DNA from: Pantoea rwandensis
Lineage (GTDB): Bacteria; Pseudomonadota; Gammaproteobacteria; Enterobacterales; Enterobacteriaceae
Reading direction: 5' to 3'
Assembly (NCBI RefSeq): GCF_000759475.1
Contig: NZ_CP009454.1
Span: 2,356,001-2,420,000 of the forward strand
DNA: 64,000 nucleotides
Position 1 is the first letter of the stretch, and every line of letters begins with the position of its first letter. A program made the position numbers and the translations under genes. A model generated the notes under the pieces. That model was given only the letters and a program-made list of their open reading frames with translations, searched no databases and was not told the DNA's origin. This document shows positions 51,048-59,832 of the stretch, one piece after another.

Positions 51048-51147
51048 GCAAGGCGAACTCGCCTTCAAAAATGCCAACTTTTAGCGCACGGCTCTCAAAG
51101 AGCCATTTCCCTGGACCCGATACAGGAATCGTATTGGGTCTTTTTTT
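51048..51147 (+). ncRNA. sdsR: SdsR (RyeB) small RNA
   Basis: The sequence follows Salmonella/E. coli SdsR: 5' GCAAGGCGA, the single-stranded seed region ATGCCAACTTTTAGCGCACG, hairpin GGCTCTCAAAGAGCC, CATTTCCCTGGACC, and a terminator stem GACCCGATAC/GTATTGGGTC (51114-51123, 51131-51140) with a T7 tail. An AT-rich element CTACCTTTAAAT upstream is compatible with the sigma-S -10. SdsR represses ompD, tolC, mutS and others in stationary phase via Hfq. E. coli also has it between yebY and pphA. Its 3' end is the attachment site of the prophage remnant. Confidence 0.9.
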
Positions 51148-51216: not shown

Positions 51217-51769
51217 CTATCCTGTTATAACTCCCGCCGCCATTTTGCCGCCATTTTTGGCGGCCATGACCGCCAACGGATTGCAGTGAATAGCATCTTC
51301 GAGATGCTTAGGCGCGAAGTGGGTATAACGCATGATTACGCGTATGTCCGGGTGCCCGAGGATGCGCTGCAGCACCAGTATGTTGCTATCGGTCATCATA
51401 AAGTGGCTGGCGAAACTATGGCGCAGCACATGGCTCATTTGTCCTTCTGGCAGCTCAATACCGGCGAGACGTATCACCCGATAAAACTGGCGATAATACT
51501 CCGCGAATAACTTTCCCTCTTTGTCTTTCAACTCATCGTGCAGCTCTTTACCGATCGGTACAGTGCGATTGCGTATGCCTTTGGTATTAATGAAGGTGAT
51601 TTTCTGTGGGGAAATCTTTGAGGATTTTAAAGCTGCAGCTTCATTCCAGCAGCATCCGGTCGAAAGACAGATTCTAATTATAAGCGTCAGCTCTGGATTG
51701 CCATGCATTTCACAGGCCGCAAACAGTTTCTTAATTTGCGCCTCGTTTAAGCGCAACATTCTGGCGTCA
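51217..51769 (-). pseudogene. int: P2-type tyrosine integrase, C-terminal fragment
   Basis: Only the catalytic half of a P2-like integrase remains (from about DARMLRLNEAQIKKL to the stop). The core has the beta-hairpin Lys (TKGIRNRTVP), box II HVLRHSF, GHPDI and the nucleophile Tyr in RYTHFAP. The first catalytic Arg, normally in an STGxRW-type motif, is Cys here (STGCCWNEA; codon TGC, one transition from CGC). The N-terminal core-binding half is missing, and the coding homology stops where portal sequence begins (about 51767). Not expected to be active. Confidence 0.88.
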
Positions 51770-52513
51770 ACGTTTATCCCGCACCCGCTGCTGAGCCAGC
51801 AGGAGTTCAGCAAGTTTGCGCTCGACTATCTGGTGTTCGGCAACGCCTTCGCCGAGCTGCGCCGCAACGCGCTCGGCAAACCGCTGCGTCTGGAAACGTC
51901 ACCGGCCAAGTATACGCGGCGCGGCGTGGAGGATGGGGTTTACTGGTTCGTGAACGAGTGGAAGGGGGCGCACCAGTTCGACGTGGATCAGGAGCTGTAC
52001 GGCCTGCCGGAATATCTTAGCGCATTAAATTCCGCCTGGCTGAACGAGGCGGCAACGCTGTTCCGCCGCAAGTATTACCAGAACGGCACGCACGCCGGTT
52101 ACATCCTGTACATGACCGACGCGGCGCAGAGCAGCAGCGACATCGAGCGCATGCGCCAGGCGATTCGCGATACCAAAGGGATCGGCAACTTCCGCAACCT
52201 GTTTATGTACGCGCCCAACGGCAAGCCGGACGACATCAAGATTTTGCCGCTGAGCGAAGTGGCTACCAAAGATGACTTTTTCAATATCAAGAAGGCCAGC
52301 CGTGATGACCTGCTCAGCGCGCACCGCGTACCGCCGCAGATGATGGGGATTATCCCGGACAGCGCAGGCGGGTTCGGGGATGCGGTGAAGGCGGCGCAGG
52401 TGTTTGTGAGGAATGAATTAACACCGTTGTAAGAGAGAATGAAAGAACTTAATCACTGGTTAAATGAAGAAGTAATAAAATTCCAAAAATATAAATTGGA
52501 AGTAGGTGAATAA
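51770..52513 (+). pseudogene. Phage portal protein (P2 gpQ family), 5'-truncated with nonsense codon
   Basis: Homology to the P2 portal begins at TFIPHPLLSQQEFSKFALDY, just after the integrase junction. It continues through LVFGNAFAELRRN, RRKYYQNGTHAGYILYM and AHRVPPQMMGIIPDS to VFVRNELTPL, where TAA (52430-52432) interrupts the frame. The same frame then reads ERMKELNHWLNEEVIKFQKY...EVGE to a TAA at 52511-52513, which is the family's natural C-terminus, so TAA replaced a sense codon (probably CAA). The N-terminal third is lost. Confidence 0.88.
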
Positions 52514-52524
52514 TAAAAATTGGC

Positions 52525-52543
52525 GGCGGTAGATTGTACCGCC
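52525..52543 (-). terminator. Terminator of the three-gene cargo operon
   Basis: GGCGGTA (52525-52531) pairs with TACCGCC (52537-52543) around GATTG. On the minus strand it is followed by ATTTTTATTATT. It lies just after the last gene's stop codon at 52550. Confidence 0.8.
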
Positions 52544-52549
52544 GGAACT

Positions 52550-53251
52550 TCAAATTTCTTTTTTGAGTAAGTGTTCGCTTATGGTTGTGTCAAAAAAAGG
52601 GATTAGATTTTCAGCAGTGCAAAGAGAACCACTTCTTGAAAGCTCAAATTCGCATTTTTCTTCTAACAAGAAACCTGAAGCCTTTACTTTGTCTAAAGAA
52701 TAACCCCTATTATTAATGATGCTTTCTATATCGGAAATGGCATTCTTTTTAGACGTTATTTCTATGGATGCTTTTGCGTTATCATTAATCACCAAGCTGC
52801 TAATCTTAACCTTTTTAATATTTATAAGGTTTAGATGGTAATTGGAATGCAATACTTTAATGTATTCATCTATCTGAATATCAACCAAACCAAACCCAAT
52901 CTTGTATTTTGATATAGAACTAAGTTTATCCGTAAGAGGACGCAAAGATTTTGGTGGATTGATTATACATAGTAAATATAACTTATTGGTTATCTTGGAA
53001 ATTGAAAATTCAAATGACTCGTATGTTAAAAGCTCTTGAGAATTTTCATTACCGTAAGGATCTACAGAGAAATTTATGTTTATCTTTTCCTCTGTGTAAG
53101 TAGATAGGATCTTGTCATTTTTTAATGAGGTGTTTGAGTATCCATGTCCTTGTGATTGAGAGTAGGGATGCGATTTAATCAGTAAAAACATTTCATCTAT
53201 GGATAAATTACTTTTAAGTCTGTTGTACTTGACCCGCACTTGATTTCTCAT
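52550..53251 (-). CDS. Third gene of the cargo operon, unknown protein (233 aa)
   Basis: A 233-residue soluble protein with no signal or membrane segment and no family I recognise. It is rich in Lys, Ile, Ser and Asn, with short alternating strands (KIGFGLVDIQIDEYIKV, KVKISSLVINDNAK) that suggest an alpha/beta fold. Its ATG overlaps the stop of the preceding gene (ATGA), so it is coupled to it. Codon use is AT-rich, unlike the chromosome around it. A role as partner or effector in the adjacent putative defence system is inference from operon structure. Confidence 0.7.
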   Translation of the reverse strand: MRNQVRVKYNRLKSNLSIDEMFLLIKSHPYSQSQGHGYSNTSLKNDKILSTYTEEKININFSVDPYGNENSQELLTYESFEFSISKITNKLYLLCIINPPKSLRPLTDKLSSISKYKIGFGLVDIQIDEYIKVLHSNYHLNLINIKKVKISSLVINDNAKASIEITSKKNAISDIESIINNRGYSLDKVKASGFLLEEKCEFELSRSGSLCTAENLIPFFDTTISEHLLKKEI

Positions 53252-54345
53252 GATTCGCCTCCTTGAGCCATTTCAGTTATATCAATTATAATTGAACGGG
53301 CTGTTTTTTCAATGAGTCGATTAAAAAACAATTCTTTCTCATCTCTCAATGGATAAAATGTTTTGTTATATTTCCCATCCCCTTTATATTTTTTCTCTCC
53401 TCTTGAAATATAAGAAAACCCGCTAAAAGAATCAGCGTCATCAAATTGGGCTTCAAACTCATAGATGTTTTTATCTGCACTCTTATCTATTACTCGCCAC
53501 TTAATACGACAAATGTAAAAGCCTCTATCATACAACGAATTTATTTCATCAGACTTTAAAACTCCCTGACCTTTTAGCGATGCTTTATCAACATGAATTC
53601 CATTACTTCCATCTCCATCACTGCCATCTGGCTTGGGATGATACACATAAGCATCCGTTACATCATCAAGTTCATAACCTTCCATTTCAGTTATCAATCT
53701 AGTAAAGAAGTCTGTTCTATATTGTGGGTCGTCAATGTTTTCTAAGCTTACACTCTTTATATCAAGCTGAGCATCGGATATAGAGGAACCTTCTTCGATT
53801 GCTTTATCGGTGGAAAGCCTTTCAATAAGGTCTAGAAACTGTTTTTCATAAGATTCTGTTTGCTCATTGTCAGGACGACGAATGACATAACCCTCATCTT
53901 GAGGCTCTAGTTCAATCAGTGCTTGCTTCTTTACCACCTGTTTGAAATCACTCTTAGAGAAATTAGTAGACATATACGTGACATATATTTTAACCACTCC
54001 GCTTTTGTCAGCAATTACATGGCAAAGATCCTTTTTTTCAATAAGAATTTGCTTGAAATCCTCAGCAGCAGAGAGGATTGTTCCTTTGTCAGGCATGTTA
54101 TATATTTCCTTAGAAGTTACCCTTTCCCTTCTAGGTTCACTGCCTAACATTGATGCTATTTTTTGATGATCGTAATAATCATGAGTAAATTTTGAGAAGT
54201 TCTTAGATAAAACTTTTTTGGAGGTTTTTTTTGAGATGATGATCCCCCGAGATAGAAACAGTTCTCTAAGTTCGTTTTGAGTTACTTGTGATTGGTTTAA
54301 TGCATCACAAAGTACTTTATCAGTAACACTATAAATATCGTTCAT
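53248..54345 (-). CDS. Second gene of the cargo operon, unknown protein (365 aa)
   Basis: A 365-residue acidic soluble protein. The first 90 residues are helical and may form a winged-helix-like region (YSVTDKVLCDALNQSQVTQN followed by ELRELFLSRGI). The middle is charged, and the last third has a beta-rich block (FYICRIKWRVID, YEFEAQFDD, FSGFSYISRGEKKYKG) ending in helices (FFNRLIEKTARSIIIDITEM). I recognise no catalytic motif. It starts one base after the first gene's stop and overlaps the third gene by four bases. Confidence 0.7.
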   Translation of the reverse strand: MNDIYSVTDKVLCDALNQSQVTQNELRELFLSRGIIISKKTSKKVLSKNFSKFTHDYYDHQKIASMLGSEPRRERVTSKEIYNMPDKGTILSAAEDFKQILIEKKDLCHVIADKSGVVKIYVTYMSTNFSKSDFKQVVKKQALIELEPQDEGYVIRRPDNEQTESYEKQFLDLIERLSTDKAIEEGSSISDAQLDIKSVSLENIDDPQYRTDFFTRLITEMEGYELDDVTDAYVYHPKPDGSDGDGSNGIHVDKASLKGQGVLKSDEINSLYDRGFYICRIKWRVIDKSADKNIYEFEAQFDDADSFSGFSYISRGEKKYKGDGKYNKTFYPLRDEKELFFNRLIEKTARSIIIDITEMAQGGES

Positions 54346-54346
54346 C

Positions 54347-55411
54347 TTATCTTTCCCAAGACATAGCTTCTGAACTATAGAATTCTTTAACGGTTGGAAC
54401 TAAATGGAGTTCCATTGCTAACAACTTCTGCTTAGCACTTTCGTCATAGTTCCAATCTAAGGCGTATTTTTCTAATGCTCTTTGAAAATGCGATCTTATA
54501 GAATCATTTCTATCACTCGTAGCGATGCGAATACGAATGTTATTTTTTCCATTTAAAATTTGATAGTTCGATAAAAGATCTAGCAAATAATAAAATTCCA
54601 TATCAGAAGAACCGGGGCGATTATAATAAACAATATATCCTGGAGGATAACATTCAAACTCTTTTTGGGTTTCTCTGTTAAATGAATATACTGCATCATG
54701 TTTGATTATTAAAAAGGGTGCAGTTAAAGACTCTACAGTGGCTGGGAAGTAATCGTCCGTAACCACAACTTTGTGATAGACCAATTGTGGGTAATAGAAT
54801 CCATATTCTTCCCTAGGGAATTGGTTGTCTCTAACCAATTCATTCATGTCCGCTATTATGGACAGCATATAACTAATTGTCTTTGGTTCTATTATATGGA
54901 GTTGCTGACCTTCAGATATATTTATATTATCTAACTTAATGGACTTAGGACGTTTTCCTCTTCCCTTCGGCGGTGGAGGATCAAAGAAATTATAAAAATT
55001 ATGTTCAAAGTCATTATCATGATTATATACAAATAGCAGGCCGCGAACTTCACTATCACCTGCACAAATGTTATATTTTTCACGCCATTGAGAACTGTAT
55101 CTAGCACAAGATATTGTTTCTCCCAATGAGGATAACGCACCTTCAATCATATCAACATTAATTGAACCTTTAGCATAACTTTTAAGGTCTGTATTCAGAA
55201 GTATCGTTTTATTAAGATAGGGGTCTTTATAACTAAATACGACATCGACAGGATGCGTATGGGCTTGTTTTTTATCAATGGGTTTATGATTATCTTCATC
55301 GATACATGCAAAGTCTTGATCGAAGGGACCAGAAATTTTCCATTTAAACCGCTCAAAAATTTTTGACGAAACAATTTTAGCTAACTCTTCAATTGGTCCA
55401 TTCTCTGCCAC
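54347..55411 (-). CDS. First gene of the cargo operon, PD-(D/E)XK nuclease-like protein (354 aa)
   Basis: A 354-residue soluble protein whose N-terminus has a restriction-endonuclease-like pattern: Glu9 in the first helix (IEELAKIVSS), Asp56 in HPVDVVFS, and Asp75-x-Lys77 in ILLNTDLKSYA. It contains a proline/basic linker (DPPPPKGRGKRPKS) at about residues 145-158. The C-terminal half has no recognised domain. I chose GTG 55411 (AENGPIEELAKI) because AAGGGG lies seven bases upstream; the longer in-frame ATG at 55474 has none. The nuclease assignment is by motif only. Location in a phage remnant and AT-rich composition suggest imported defence cargo. Confidence 0.7.
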   Translation of the reverse strand: MAENGPIEELAKIVSSKIFERFKWKISGPFDQDFACIDEDNHKPIDKKQAHTHPVDVVFSYKDPYLNKTILLNTDLKSYAKGSINVDMIEGALSSLGETISCARYSSQWREKYNICAGDSEVRGLLFVYNHDNDFEHNFYNFFDPPPPKGRGKRPKSIKLDNINISEGQQLHIIEPKTISYMLSIIADMNELVRDNQFPREEYGFYYPQLVYHKVVVTDDYFPATVESLTAPFLIIKHDAVYSFNRETQKEFECYPPGYIVYYNRPGSSDMEFYYLLDLLSNYQILNGKNNIRIRIATSDRNDSIRSHFQRALEKYALDWNYDESAKQKLLAMELHLVPTVKEFYSSEAMSWER

Positions 55412-55680
55412 AAGTACACCCCTTATAAACTGTGAGATATTTCCTATGGACAAGATAAGGAATCGTAAAAACATTTACAATACTTATGTAAGTTCAAAAG
55501 TGGTTTTCGCAACAGCGTCTGCGCGCAATGCTACCCCCCACGCCTGCCCGCTTTATGCATCGCTTTTCATGCAGATGCATGCACTACGTGAAGCCGCGGC
55601 AGCAGTGAGCACCATAGCGATTGACGATCCTTTCAGGATCATGCGAAATCATGCACAAAAATGCGGTTTGCTGCACTACG

Positions 55681-55958: not shown

Positions 55959-55991
55959 TCATAGTGATAAGGAATCGTAAAGAATCGTGCA

Positions 55992-56191: not shown

Positions 56192-57091
56192 TCAGACCGC
56201 GCAAAACGAAGCGCCAAGACCGCTGATCGCATCGACTGTTGAAGACAGAGCAGGGTTAGACTGTATGCGCGCTTGAACGGGCAGCGCTGCAAGCGTTAAG
56301 CAACGAATGCCGCTGTTAACGTTTTGCAGCAGGCCGCGTTTGCAGCTCGCGTTCATTTGCTCATTGGAGATCGCGCCTGCCGCGAGTTGACCAACCTCGG
56401 CGGTAGCCTTCATCACATACAGCGGCAGCTTATCGTTCGCCACTTCGTTTATCGGCACGCAAGGCAAGCACTGGATTTGCGCAAGCAGGCCATCAATCAG
56501 CGTTGCGTCTTCGGTGACATCGGTAAGCACTAACACTTCTTGCACGGTGAGCTGGTGCGGCTGATTGGGATTCAGTTTGGTACACAGCGTTTGCGCCCGC
56601 AGGCCTGCCTGCTGTGCAACGTCTTCCATGTTGTGCGTTAACGCGAACTTGCGACAGGCATCGTCGTAATGTGCATGGTTAGAAACTTTGAAATCAAACA
56701 TGTTTAAAATGCCCTCGACTTGCAAAATCAAATTAGGGTTTGATGTAGCGACATTTGATTGCGTGTTGAGGGTTTTTTCACGCCATGCAGCAACATTGAT
56801 AAGTGGGTTGCCATGTTTGGTCATTGTGGTTGGTACTTTCTCACCGGTCTTTTTGTTAGTGTGGTTCTGTGTGTAGATGAACGAAGGGGTGGGGGCTAGT
56901 AATACCACTCCGTTAGAGATCCATTTCTCTAGCACCGACTCGCTGATACGGTTGGCTGCTGCGAAGTCTTGTTTAGACATGGTTGGTGAAATTGCGAGCG
57001 CGACAGCTTTGTTCACGGCATCGTTAACCACTTCACTGATGGCGGGCATTAAAATAGCAGCGACATTGGCAATGAAATCTTTAGATTGCAA
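56192..57091 (-). CDS. Fused Cox-CII phage regulator (299 aa)
   Basis: Residues 1 to about 105 resemble P2-like Cox excision/repressor proteins (MSKQDFAAANRISESVLEKW, then LINVAAWREK). From residue 131 (MFDFKVSNHAHYDDACRKFA) the protein is a CII-type regulator (Phage_CP76 family). In known phages these are two genes. Here no stop separates them, and the CII start ATG survives with GAGG 12 bases upstream, so CII could also be made alone. It is divergent from cI. Confidence 0.75.
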   Translation of the reverse strand: MQSKDFIANVAAILMPAISEVVNDAVNKAVALAISPTMSKQDFAAANRISESVLEKWISNGVVLLAPTPSFIYTQNHTNKKTGEKVPTTMTKHGNPLINVAAWREKTLNTQSNVATSNPNLILQVEGILNMFDFKVSNHAHYDDACRKFALTHNMEDVAQQAGLRAQTLCTKLNPNQPHQLTVQEVLVLTDVTEDATLIDGLLAQIQCLPCVPINEVANDKLPLYVMKATAEVGQLAAGAISNEQMNASCKRGLLQNVNSGIRCLTLAALPVQARIQSNPALSSTVDAISGLGASFCAV

Positions 57092-58165: not shown

Positions 58166-59482
58166 GTGCTAAGAAAATCATCAGAATTACTCAGGGAATT
58201 TATTGAATATGAAAAAAAGGTGCTGGCAGAACTTCCGGACATGCCACACATGCCAACTTTAGGGGATGCCTATGAAGAAATAACTAAAACTATGCTTGAA
58301 AAAGATTATGTTTTGCCACCTGAGTTTGATTTACATGTTGTTTCAGGATTTATAACTGTTAATGGAAAATTATTACCCCAGCAAATTGATTGCATGCTTG
58401 TTGTTGGAAAGGGGGTAAGATACGGACGTACAGACAAATATCTATGCGAAATAGACCAAGTTTTATGCGTTTTTGAAGTAAAAAAAACCTTAAACAAGGC
58501 AGACCTTAGCGATGCTATGGAACATTTGGCAGCTATTCGACGTGCCCACACTGATAACTTCGAACGGAAGGTTGAAGAAGGATTTTTACCAAAAATAGAT
58601 AATGCTAGTAAGCATTTTTCACAATTAACTGGAAGGGAAACTATTGTTAATTATGAACAAATCAATTCTCTGCCTCCAGAGGATGGGATTTTACTCTATT
58701 CATTAGTTCAAGAGATTTTAGCACCAGTAACGATCATACATGGCTATGCCGGATATAAAAAAGAAAGTGGGTTGAGGGGAGCATTTGGAGACATTCTTCA
58801 GGAGAAGTTTGATAGTGGGGATAATTCATTCGGCGTTCTGTCCTTACCAAATATAGTAACGTCAAATGAATTCAGTCTCGTAAAAACAGGAGGACTTCCA
58901 TTTATTGTCCCAAACAAAAACTCAGAATGGGTTTCAATTATATCGACTAGATTCAATCCATTGGAGATAATATTAGAGGTCGTCTGGTCTAAAATATCCA
59001 GTCATTTTGAAGTGGCTATGCCATGGGATGATGATGTTTATATGAATAATATATCACCTTTCATGCTGGCAATACCTAAAGCTCAAGGCGAACAGGTTGG
59101 GTGGAAGTATGAAACGATAGATTGGAATGAAAAAAAATTATTAAGGAGTGATGATAATACTTGGTCGCCAGATTTTTTAAATCCGGCTCAAATGTCCATA
59201 ATGAGGTTGATATCAGCTTATGGTGAGTTAGAGATTAATTTTGAGAATGAAAAATACTTCGAAGAAAGATATGGCGTTGAATTGAAAACTGAGATTGCTG
59301 CTCTCATCTCAACCCGCATTTTTATGATGAGCCGCGATTCTATCAAACCAATCAATCAGCATACTCTTTTGTTAGATGGAGAAGATGGCACTGGGTATGT
59401 TGCAAGTGATAGAGACAGATTTGATAGTTGGTGCTCGATCAACGATATTGAGCCACATTATACTCACATGGTTATATATTGA
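58166..59482 (+). CDS. PD-(D/E)XK-like protein, DUF6602 type (438 aa)
   Basis: A 438-residue soluble protein with a restriction-endonuclease-like core near the N-terminus: Glu37 in LGDAYEE, Asp75 in PQQIDCMLVV, and Glu104-x-Lys106 in VFEVKKTL. The arrangement resembles DUF6602 proteins, which I recall from mobile and defence contexts; target unknown. The rest (about 150-438) has no domain I recognise. The start is GTG 58166 behind an optimal TAAGGAGGAG. It is AT-rich and lies between cI and attR, the place where int would stand in an intact phage, so it is probably cargo. Confidence 0.72.
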   Translation: MLRKSSELLREFIEYEKKVLAELPDMPHMPTLGDAYEEITKTMLEKDYVLPPEFDLHVVSGFITVNGKLLPQQIDCMLVVGKGVRYGRTDKYLCEIDQVLCVFEVKKTLNKADLSDAMEHLAAIRRAHTDNFERKVEEGFLPKIDNASKHFSQLTGRETIVNYEQINSLPPEDGILLYSLVQEILAPVTIIHGYAGYKKESGLRGAFGDILQEKFDSGDNSFGVLSLPNIVTSNEFSLVKTGGLPFIVPNKNSEWVSIISTRFNPLEIILEVVWSKISSHFEVAMPWDDDVYMNNISPFMLAIPKAQGEQVGWKYETIDWNEKKLLRSDDNTWSPDFLNPAQMSIMRLISAYGELEINFENEKYFEERYGVELKTEIAALISTRIFMMSRDSIKPINQHTLLLDGEDGTGYVASDRDRFDSWCSINDIEPHYTHMVIY

Positions 59483-59832
59483 TTATGAAATGACTAGGGA
59501 GTTTACATTTCATCCTTTTGCTAATATGGCGATAAGAAGCCAATTTGTCGCCACATCCCATTGTAACCTATTGATGTTAAATGGTTATGATAGCATTGGG
59601 TCTTTTTTGTTCTATTGATTTTTATGATTAAAATTTTATTTTCACCCAGATTTCCCGAAATTTGTCCGAATCTTTATATCCGAATCAAATTCCTACCCCT
59701 CAATCCTTACCCAATCTTTGCGCAAAATACCCGCAATTCCCCCCAGCTAATCCGCCAATCGCGCCACGCTTCACGTGCTACATTTCGTCTCAGCCACACG
59801 CCAACCCTGCCAGCCTAAACGAGAGTCTTGCG
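59483..59832. other. attR and the junction back to chromosome
   Basis: AT-rich phage DNA up to the repeat at 59595-59612, then about 220 bases of chromosomal sequence before the lipoprotein gene. No gene is visible. Confidence 0.5.
59595..59612. repeat. attR: right direct repeat
   Basis: ATTGGGTCTTTTTTGTTC matches attL (51133-51151) except for one T in the T-run. The sequence left of it lacks the ascending arm of the SdsR terminator, as expected if the crossover took place in this core. Confidence 0.82.

Follow-up and report, generated by a model that had tools for sequence, protein, structure and literature searches.

A divergent copy of the three-gene defence system 3HP in a decayed P2-like prophage of Pantoea rwandensis and a possible nuclease-and-clamp mechanism

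In the hotspot of P2-type prophages, a three-gene prototype that protects against phage P1 was reported by Rousset et al. (2022), its genes being described with 'no clear predicted domain' in the excerpt drawn on here (PMC9122126). An operon of this kind, encoding the proteins Hp1, Hp2 and Hp3, lies in a 64,000-nt stretch of the Pantoea rwandensis genome (contig NZ_CP009454.1, positions 2,356,001 to 2,420,000), hereafter the window, within which every coordinate below is counted. The prototype trio is presumably the system named Rst_3HP or 3HP, an assumption of ours that agrees with gene number, place and the names of the PADLOC models. In the relevant portions of later sources, DefenseFinder's Rst_3HP is mostly prophage-borne (PMC9090908), a 2024 table puts 3HP among the systems of unknown mechanism (PMC10855318), and Rousset's 'HP + HP + HP' is placed under PF08878 (CAP4-SAVED), a nuclease-type hint that was not reproduced here (PMC10952713). 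Excerpts of PMC11077077, PMC4080450 and PMC11305592 were also drawn on. Judged by its sequence, the Pantoea operon is almost certainly an intact, divergent copy of 3HP.

The operon, its match to 3HP and its inheritance

The operon and its 3' hairpin comprise the following features:

54347..55411, minus strand: Hp1, 354 aa, PD-(D/E)XK-type nuclease candidate, remote homologue of GapS4a
53248..54345, minus strand: Hp2, 365 aa, helical N-terminal part followed by a predicted tandem RdgC / Iml3 fold domain, weak GapS4b homologue
52550..53251, minus strand: Hp3, 233 aa, fastest-evolving subunit, possible clamp partner of Hp2
52524..52544, minus strand: terminator-like hairpin that follows Hp3 and separates the operon from a convergent portal remnant

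Each product is recognized by the PADLOC model of the corresponding 3HP protein: Hp1 by PDLC03004 (E 8e-65, 217.6 bits, residues 3-327), Hp2 by PDLC03005 (E 1.5e-40, residues 3-351) and Hp3 by PDLC03006 (E 1.1e-7, residues 6-208), and the three genes are adjacent, on one strand and in the order Hp1-Hp2-Hp3 that defines the system. Among phage-protein families, Hp1 falls in PHROG 7059 and Hp3 in PHROG 5850. An earlier note on this DNA had proposed an undescribed anti-phage operon of P2-hotspot type; the anti-phage assignment is upheld by the match to 3HP, whose prototype is active against P1, but 'undescribed' fails because all three products match, in order, the models of a named system. With the same models, a P2-type viral contig (L098) scores 791, 820 and 519 bits. 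The likeness to 3HP thus covers the homology and the order of all three genes and their place next to a portal gene, which other P2-type loci share, whereas the differences lie in the lower score of the Hp1 of the window, in an Hp3 that is approximately 21% identical to that of L098, in the decay of the surrounding P2 prophage, and in the fact that protection against P1 is a result obtained with the prototype. In the Hp1 tree, the window clusters with L062, L064 and a Buttiauxella sequence (L028), apart from the clade of the type contigs.

None of the three frames is truncated, and the anatomy described in the earlier note was confirmed, with a single base separating Hp1 from Hp2 (54346) and an ATGA overlap between Hp2 and Hp3 (53251-53248). 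The AT-rich character of the operon was likewise borne out, the GC content being 0.341 for 52550-55411 versus 0.536 window-wide, and as low in 4 of 1223 segments of equal length (step 50). The GTG at 55411 is preferred as the Hp1 start over an upstream ATG at 55474, which is likewise open, because alignments with relatives begin at the GTG and a length of 350-360 aa is found in most of the 120 listed. As for the terminator previously attributed to the operon, a hairpin of 8 pairs, 6 of them G-C, with a T-rich tail on the minus strand, is indeed present at 52544-52524, but it is weak as a motif, since shuffled sequences give about as many such sites (2.0, standard deviation 1.5) as the stretch itself (3).

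The neighbourhood analysis of homologues that had been suggested as a check favoured a linked system. It covered 105 loci (the window, 4 whole-genome, 33 genome-contig and 67 viral loci), and Hp1-Hp2-Hp3 were found in order at 99 of them, the window counted. The 6 exceptions are all viral (3 without a recognised trio open reading frame (ORF), 2 with Hp1 only, 1 with Hp1 and Hp2), and in these contigs the match is terminal or nearly so within the available stretch. Since the loci were chosen by Hp1 or Hp2, it is Hp3 that provides the real test of linkage, and the ORF directly downstream of Hp2 is an Hp3 relative in 97 of 97 cases (profile iteration, with one Hp3 profile that includes the window). 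Furthermore, pairwise comparison of the distances of Hp1, Hp2 and Hp3 gives correlations of 0.956, 0.890 and 0.883 (65 non-redundant loci), while the correlations with the portal are 0.32-0.43 (23 loci), which is weaker, yet likewise above all 2000 permutations. The three genes are inherited as one unit.

The trio lies between genes A and Q of P2-type phages at 47 of 67 viral, 1 of 4 whole-genome and 0 of 33 genome-contig loci, and in the viral loci it is oriented with A in 15 cases and against A in 32. The closest relatives, L061-L063, sit between A and Q; in the window the portal remnant is present and the A gene was not found. 3HP is rare in the family, Hp1 matches occurring in 5 of 295 genomes, the weakest of which (G235) is a GAPS4-like locus. 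Among 5426 E. coli genomes, the L098 trio is matched in 18 (13 at 95-99% identity, 5 at 80-90%) and that of L069, which in the tree falls on the same side as the window, in 11 (2 at 95-99%, 9 at 80-90%).

Some individual trios deserve mention. One (L151, 5992-8889) belongs to phage 99-2, a filamentous Pseudomonas phage, and lies close to the end of the record with a repeat region next to it. Two are plasmid-borne (L148, 4495-7488; L149, 4501-7474) and very divergent, with an Hp1 approximately 24.5% identical to that of the window and a longer Hp2 (403-415 aa), and in L022 (6534-7647), near the type clade, Hp2 is split over two ORFs of 225 and 77 aa.

The three subunits and their relation to GAPS4

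The alignments of Hp1 and Hp2 hold 92 rows each, namely the window and 91 of the 120 listed relatives, fragments and near-duplicates being omitted (303 and 162 relatives were found in all); that of Hp3 holds 54 of 57 non-redundant sequences, and the RdgC set 48 of 49 loci. Asp56, Asp75 and Lys77 of Hp1 are invariant in all 92 rows, which upholds the PD-(D/E)XK-like signature read earlier from this protein, but the Glu9 then included in it is Glu in just 45 of 92 rows and is ruled out as a catalytic residue, its place being taken by Glu3 (91 of 92). The pattern of a helix-1 acid followed by D ... (D/E)-x-K is thereby present as E3, D56 and D75-x-K77, and Hp1 is a PD-(D/E)XK-type nuclease candidate with Glu3, Asp56, Asp75 and Lys77 as putative catalytic residues. 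In UniRef, some of the listed relatives are named 'GAPS4 PD-(D/E)XK nuclease domain-containing', and the listed relatives bear the precomputed label PF26115. A Pfam scan gave no match for Hp1 or Hp2, PF26115 not being returned by the library used, and a sequence search of solved structures gave no match better than E 0.2 for Hp1, Hp2, Hp3, GapS4a or GapS4b.

The GapS4a model of the two-gene system GAPS4 is matched by the Hp1 of the window at E 5.1e-8, with 32.5 bits, far under the curated cut-off of 270 bits, and by 82 of 92 Hp1 rows (E up to 0.001). By hhalign, Hp1 and GapS4a reach 97.7-98.2%, compared to at most 0.8% for 14 decoy families. Of 17 further families in the first set of comparisons, 14 are true decoys, the other three being Hp1, Hp2 and Hp3 over again, and in the second set 15 of 18 are. 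These sequence comparisons show that Hp1 and GapS4a are remotely homologous, and Hp2 appears, more weakly, to be homologous to GapS4b; the gene order is equal in the two systems. The window operon differs in its third gene, and Hp3 was not found in any of the 7 GAPS4 loci examined. The GAPS kinship put forward in the earlier note survives as a profile homology, although 3HP is the closest known system and GAPS4, on the sequence evidence, a two-gene system remotely related to the core formed by Hp1 and Hp2.

In the predicted model of Hp2, Foldseek recognizes, after a helical N-terminal part, a tandem two-unit domain of the RdgC / RexA / Iml3-CENP-L fold. Solved members of this fold form rings or horseshoes on DNA, and the fold is found at kinetochores (CENP-L/N), in the control of recombination (RdgC) and in the exclusion of phages (RexA). 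That RexA has the fold of RdgC is taken from the literature excerpts drawn on; the absence of RexA among the Foldseek rows shown is no evidence either way. Hp2 differs from RdgC, RexA and Iml3-Chl4 in lacking detectable sequence similarity to RdgC and in possessing the extra helical part and a nuclease partner, here a candidate one. It also has 15 alignment columns with at least 90% Lys/Arg, which are compatible with a DNA-binding ring or horseshoe dimer. A resemblance of its N-terminus to SAP was considered and dropped, SAP being matched by 0 of 10 N-terminal pieces (the best other match was DUF4518, 0.0021).

Hp3 is the fastest-evolving subunit, with a mean distance of 0.784 versus 0.670 and 0.581 for the other two. 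The pN/pS values relative to L061 are 0.12, 0.24 and 0.39 for the trio, the last being that of Hp3; just raw pN and pS were used, and dN/dS was dropped, because silent sites are saturated relative to L061-L063. A Pfam match of Hp3 to DUF7632 (0.025) was treated as noise, as were scattered matches in scans of the 92 Hp2 and 54 Hp3 rows, the best for Hp2 being Pox_E6 (7 of 92 rows, best 2.6e-4). A Chou-Fasman guess for Hp3 was discarded because the method was right for just 56% on Hp2.

A number of observations weigh against a clamp-guided nuclease and its kinship with GAPS4. The hhalign value for Hp2 and GapS4b swings with the alignment; GapS4b is matched by just 5 of 92 Hp2 rows (E up to 0.1), while two unrelated models match more rows, at weaker E-values, and in the defence-family scan the Hp2 of the window matched 0 families, GapS4b included. 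In GapS4a the D-x-K motif has no middle acid: six sequences (L017-L021, L026) keep the first Asp and show S-x-K where Hp1 has D-x-K, as read by eye across a one-residue alignment gap, so that the active site of GAPS4 may be a variant one. The fold of Hp2 comes from a single model and from re-alignment of Foldseek's 1000 best chains, with an rmsd of 4.5 Å to RdgC, and hhalign detected no sequence similarity between Hp2 and RdgC (0.2-0.3%, no better than decoys). The Hp3-RdgC profile match is weak (10.3% / 0.003 and 6.6% / 0.0055), even if it is the best after Hp3's own family among 18 families compared, and a CENP-L match in 1 of 54 Hp3 rows (0.0074) is no better than noise in the same scan. 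Finally, the nuclease role of Hp1, DNA cutting included, is that of a candidate recognized by its sequence motif.

The surrounding prophage remnant

Further phage-related features flank the operon on both sides:

51737..52432, plus strand: portal (P2-type, gene Q) remnant; PHROG 68 residues 73-316 of 344, TIGR01540 215.8 bits
51217..51813, minus strand: integrase C-terminal fragment; PF00589, PHROG 1 residues 266-444 of 611
56192..57091, minus strand: CII-type phage regulator (CP76); PF06892 144 bits
57176..57892, plus strand: CI-type phage repressor; PF07022 159 bits

The operon does adjoin a P2-type portal gene, as had been noted, but this gene is a remnant that lacks its first part (its first matched residue gives the computed start, 51737) and carries an in-frame stop at 52430-52432, near its end. 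The integrase fragment overlaps the front of the portal remnant on the opposite strand, and no window ORF matched the P2-type A protein (query from L024) at E 1e-4. The host prophage is decayed and P2-like, with the trio intact inside it.

Beside the CI-type repressor, a DUF6602 gene (58166-59482, plus strand; PF20247 54.5 bits, PADLOC PD_DExK 2e-10) may be a second defence gene in the remnant. The interval that separates the operon from the CII-type gene holds an exact 16-base direct repeat (55454-55469 and 55966-55981), with one copy just upstream of Hp1. The remnant is bracketed by a 19-base near-repeat (51128-51146 and 59590-59608) that could be an att-like trace; this 17/19 match is the sole candidate for such repeats, which are not established.

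Proposed mechanism, alternatives and significance

The reading that we consider somewhat probable, taken as a whole, combines 3HP identity with Hp1 as a PD-(D/E)XK effector and Hp2, with or without Hp3, as a DNA clamp that positions Hp1. By analogy with the Iml3-Chl4 heterodimer, Hp2, probably paired with Hp3, would clamp either phage DNA or an intermediate of replication or recombination, so positioning Hp1, which as a DNA nuclease would cut the clamped DNA, while Hp3, as the most variable subunit, would most likely tune recognition. We infer clamp assembly, Hp2-Hp3 pairing, the trigger and the choice of phage rather than host DNA; the computed support covers system identity, unit inheritance, conservation of the putative catalytic residues, Hp1-GapS4a homology and the predicted Hp2 fold, and activity against P1 is taken from the paper on the prototype.

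Operon anatomy and conservation would fit equally well an abortive-infection switch, in which Hp1 would be a toxic nuclease with host DNA (or RNA) as its target, restrained by Hp2-Hp3 and set free by a phage protein or a DNA structure. Separate sensors and effectors are common among defence systems, and the fastest-evolving Hp3 could sense a phage protein; the predicted Hp2 fold, however, suggests DNA binding and not a protein inhibitor. This switch is considered rather unlikely, with a tentative preference for direct restriction, in which the phage DNA is cut and not that of the host. The RdgC fold of RexA, together with the loss of the middle acid in GapS4a, the homologue of Hp1, could suggest that Hp2-Hp3 bind DNA and disturb phage development by RexA-like exclusion or regulation, Hp1 being no working nuclease, but retention of the four putative catalytic residues in 91-92 of 92 relatives makes this quite improbable.

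Only marginally less improbable is that prophage and cassette are both dead, the latter having lost its expression or its function in this host: the surrounding prophage is broken (integrase and portal fragments, A gene not found) and promoter-like sites in the stretch are no more numerous than in shuffles, with none just upstream of Hp1, but the three frames are full length and the putative catalytic residues are present, and the pN/pS values given above also speak against it, though they mostly reflect selection before the decay. The divergence of the window, seen in the modest Hp3 score and in an Hp1 clade apart from the type clade, could also be read as a GAPS-like but separate undescribed system of a nuclease and two accessory proteins; the three named models matched in order and the intermediates that bridge the gap in one alignment and tree leave very little room for this. 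The clamp-positioned nuclease thus remains our preferred reading.

Taken as a locus, the operon is unremarkable: it adds one more divergent copy to an already named defence system. Its mechanism could matter, as two results, the Hp2 fold match and the homology between Hp1-Hp2 and GapS4a-GapS4b, lead to a testable nuclease-plus-DNA-clamp model for three hypothetical proteins and would join 3HP and GAPS4, which are catalogued apart. Among the matches listed, no literature link of 3HP to GAPS4 or RdgC was found; most subscription journals lay outside the search, and absence from print is not claimed. More tentatively, and with a likelihood that falls short of even, 3HP and GAPS4 may form one superfamily of clamp-guided nucleases, in which Hp2, or a heterodimer of Hp2 and Hp3 as in Iml3-Chl4, would load on phage DNA as a ring or horseshoe of RdgC fold and deliver a PD-(D/E)XK nuclease; if true, this would represent a further biological use of the RdgC / RexA / CENP-L/N fold.
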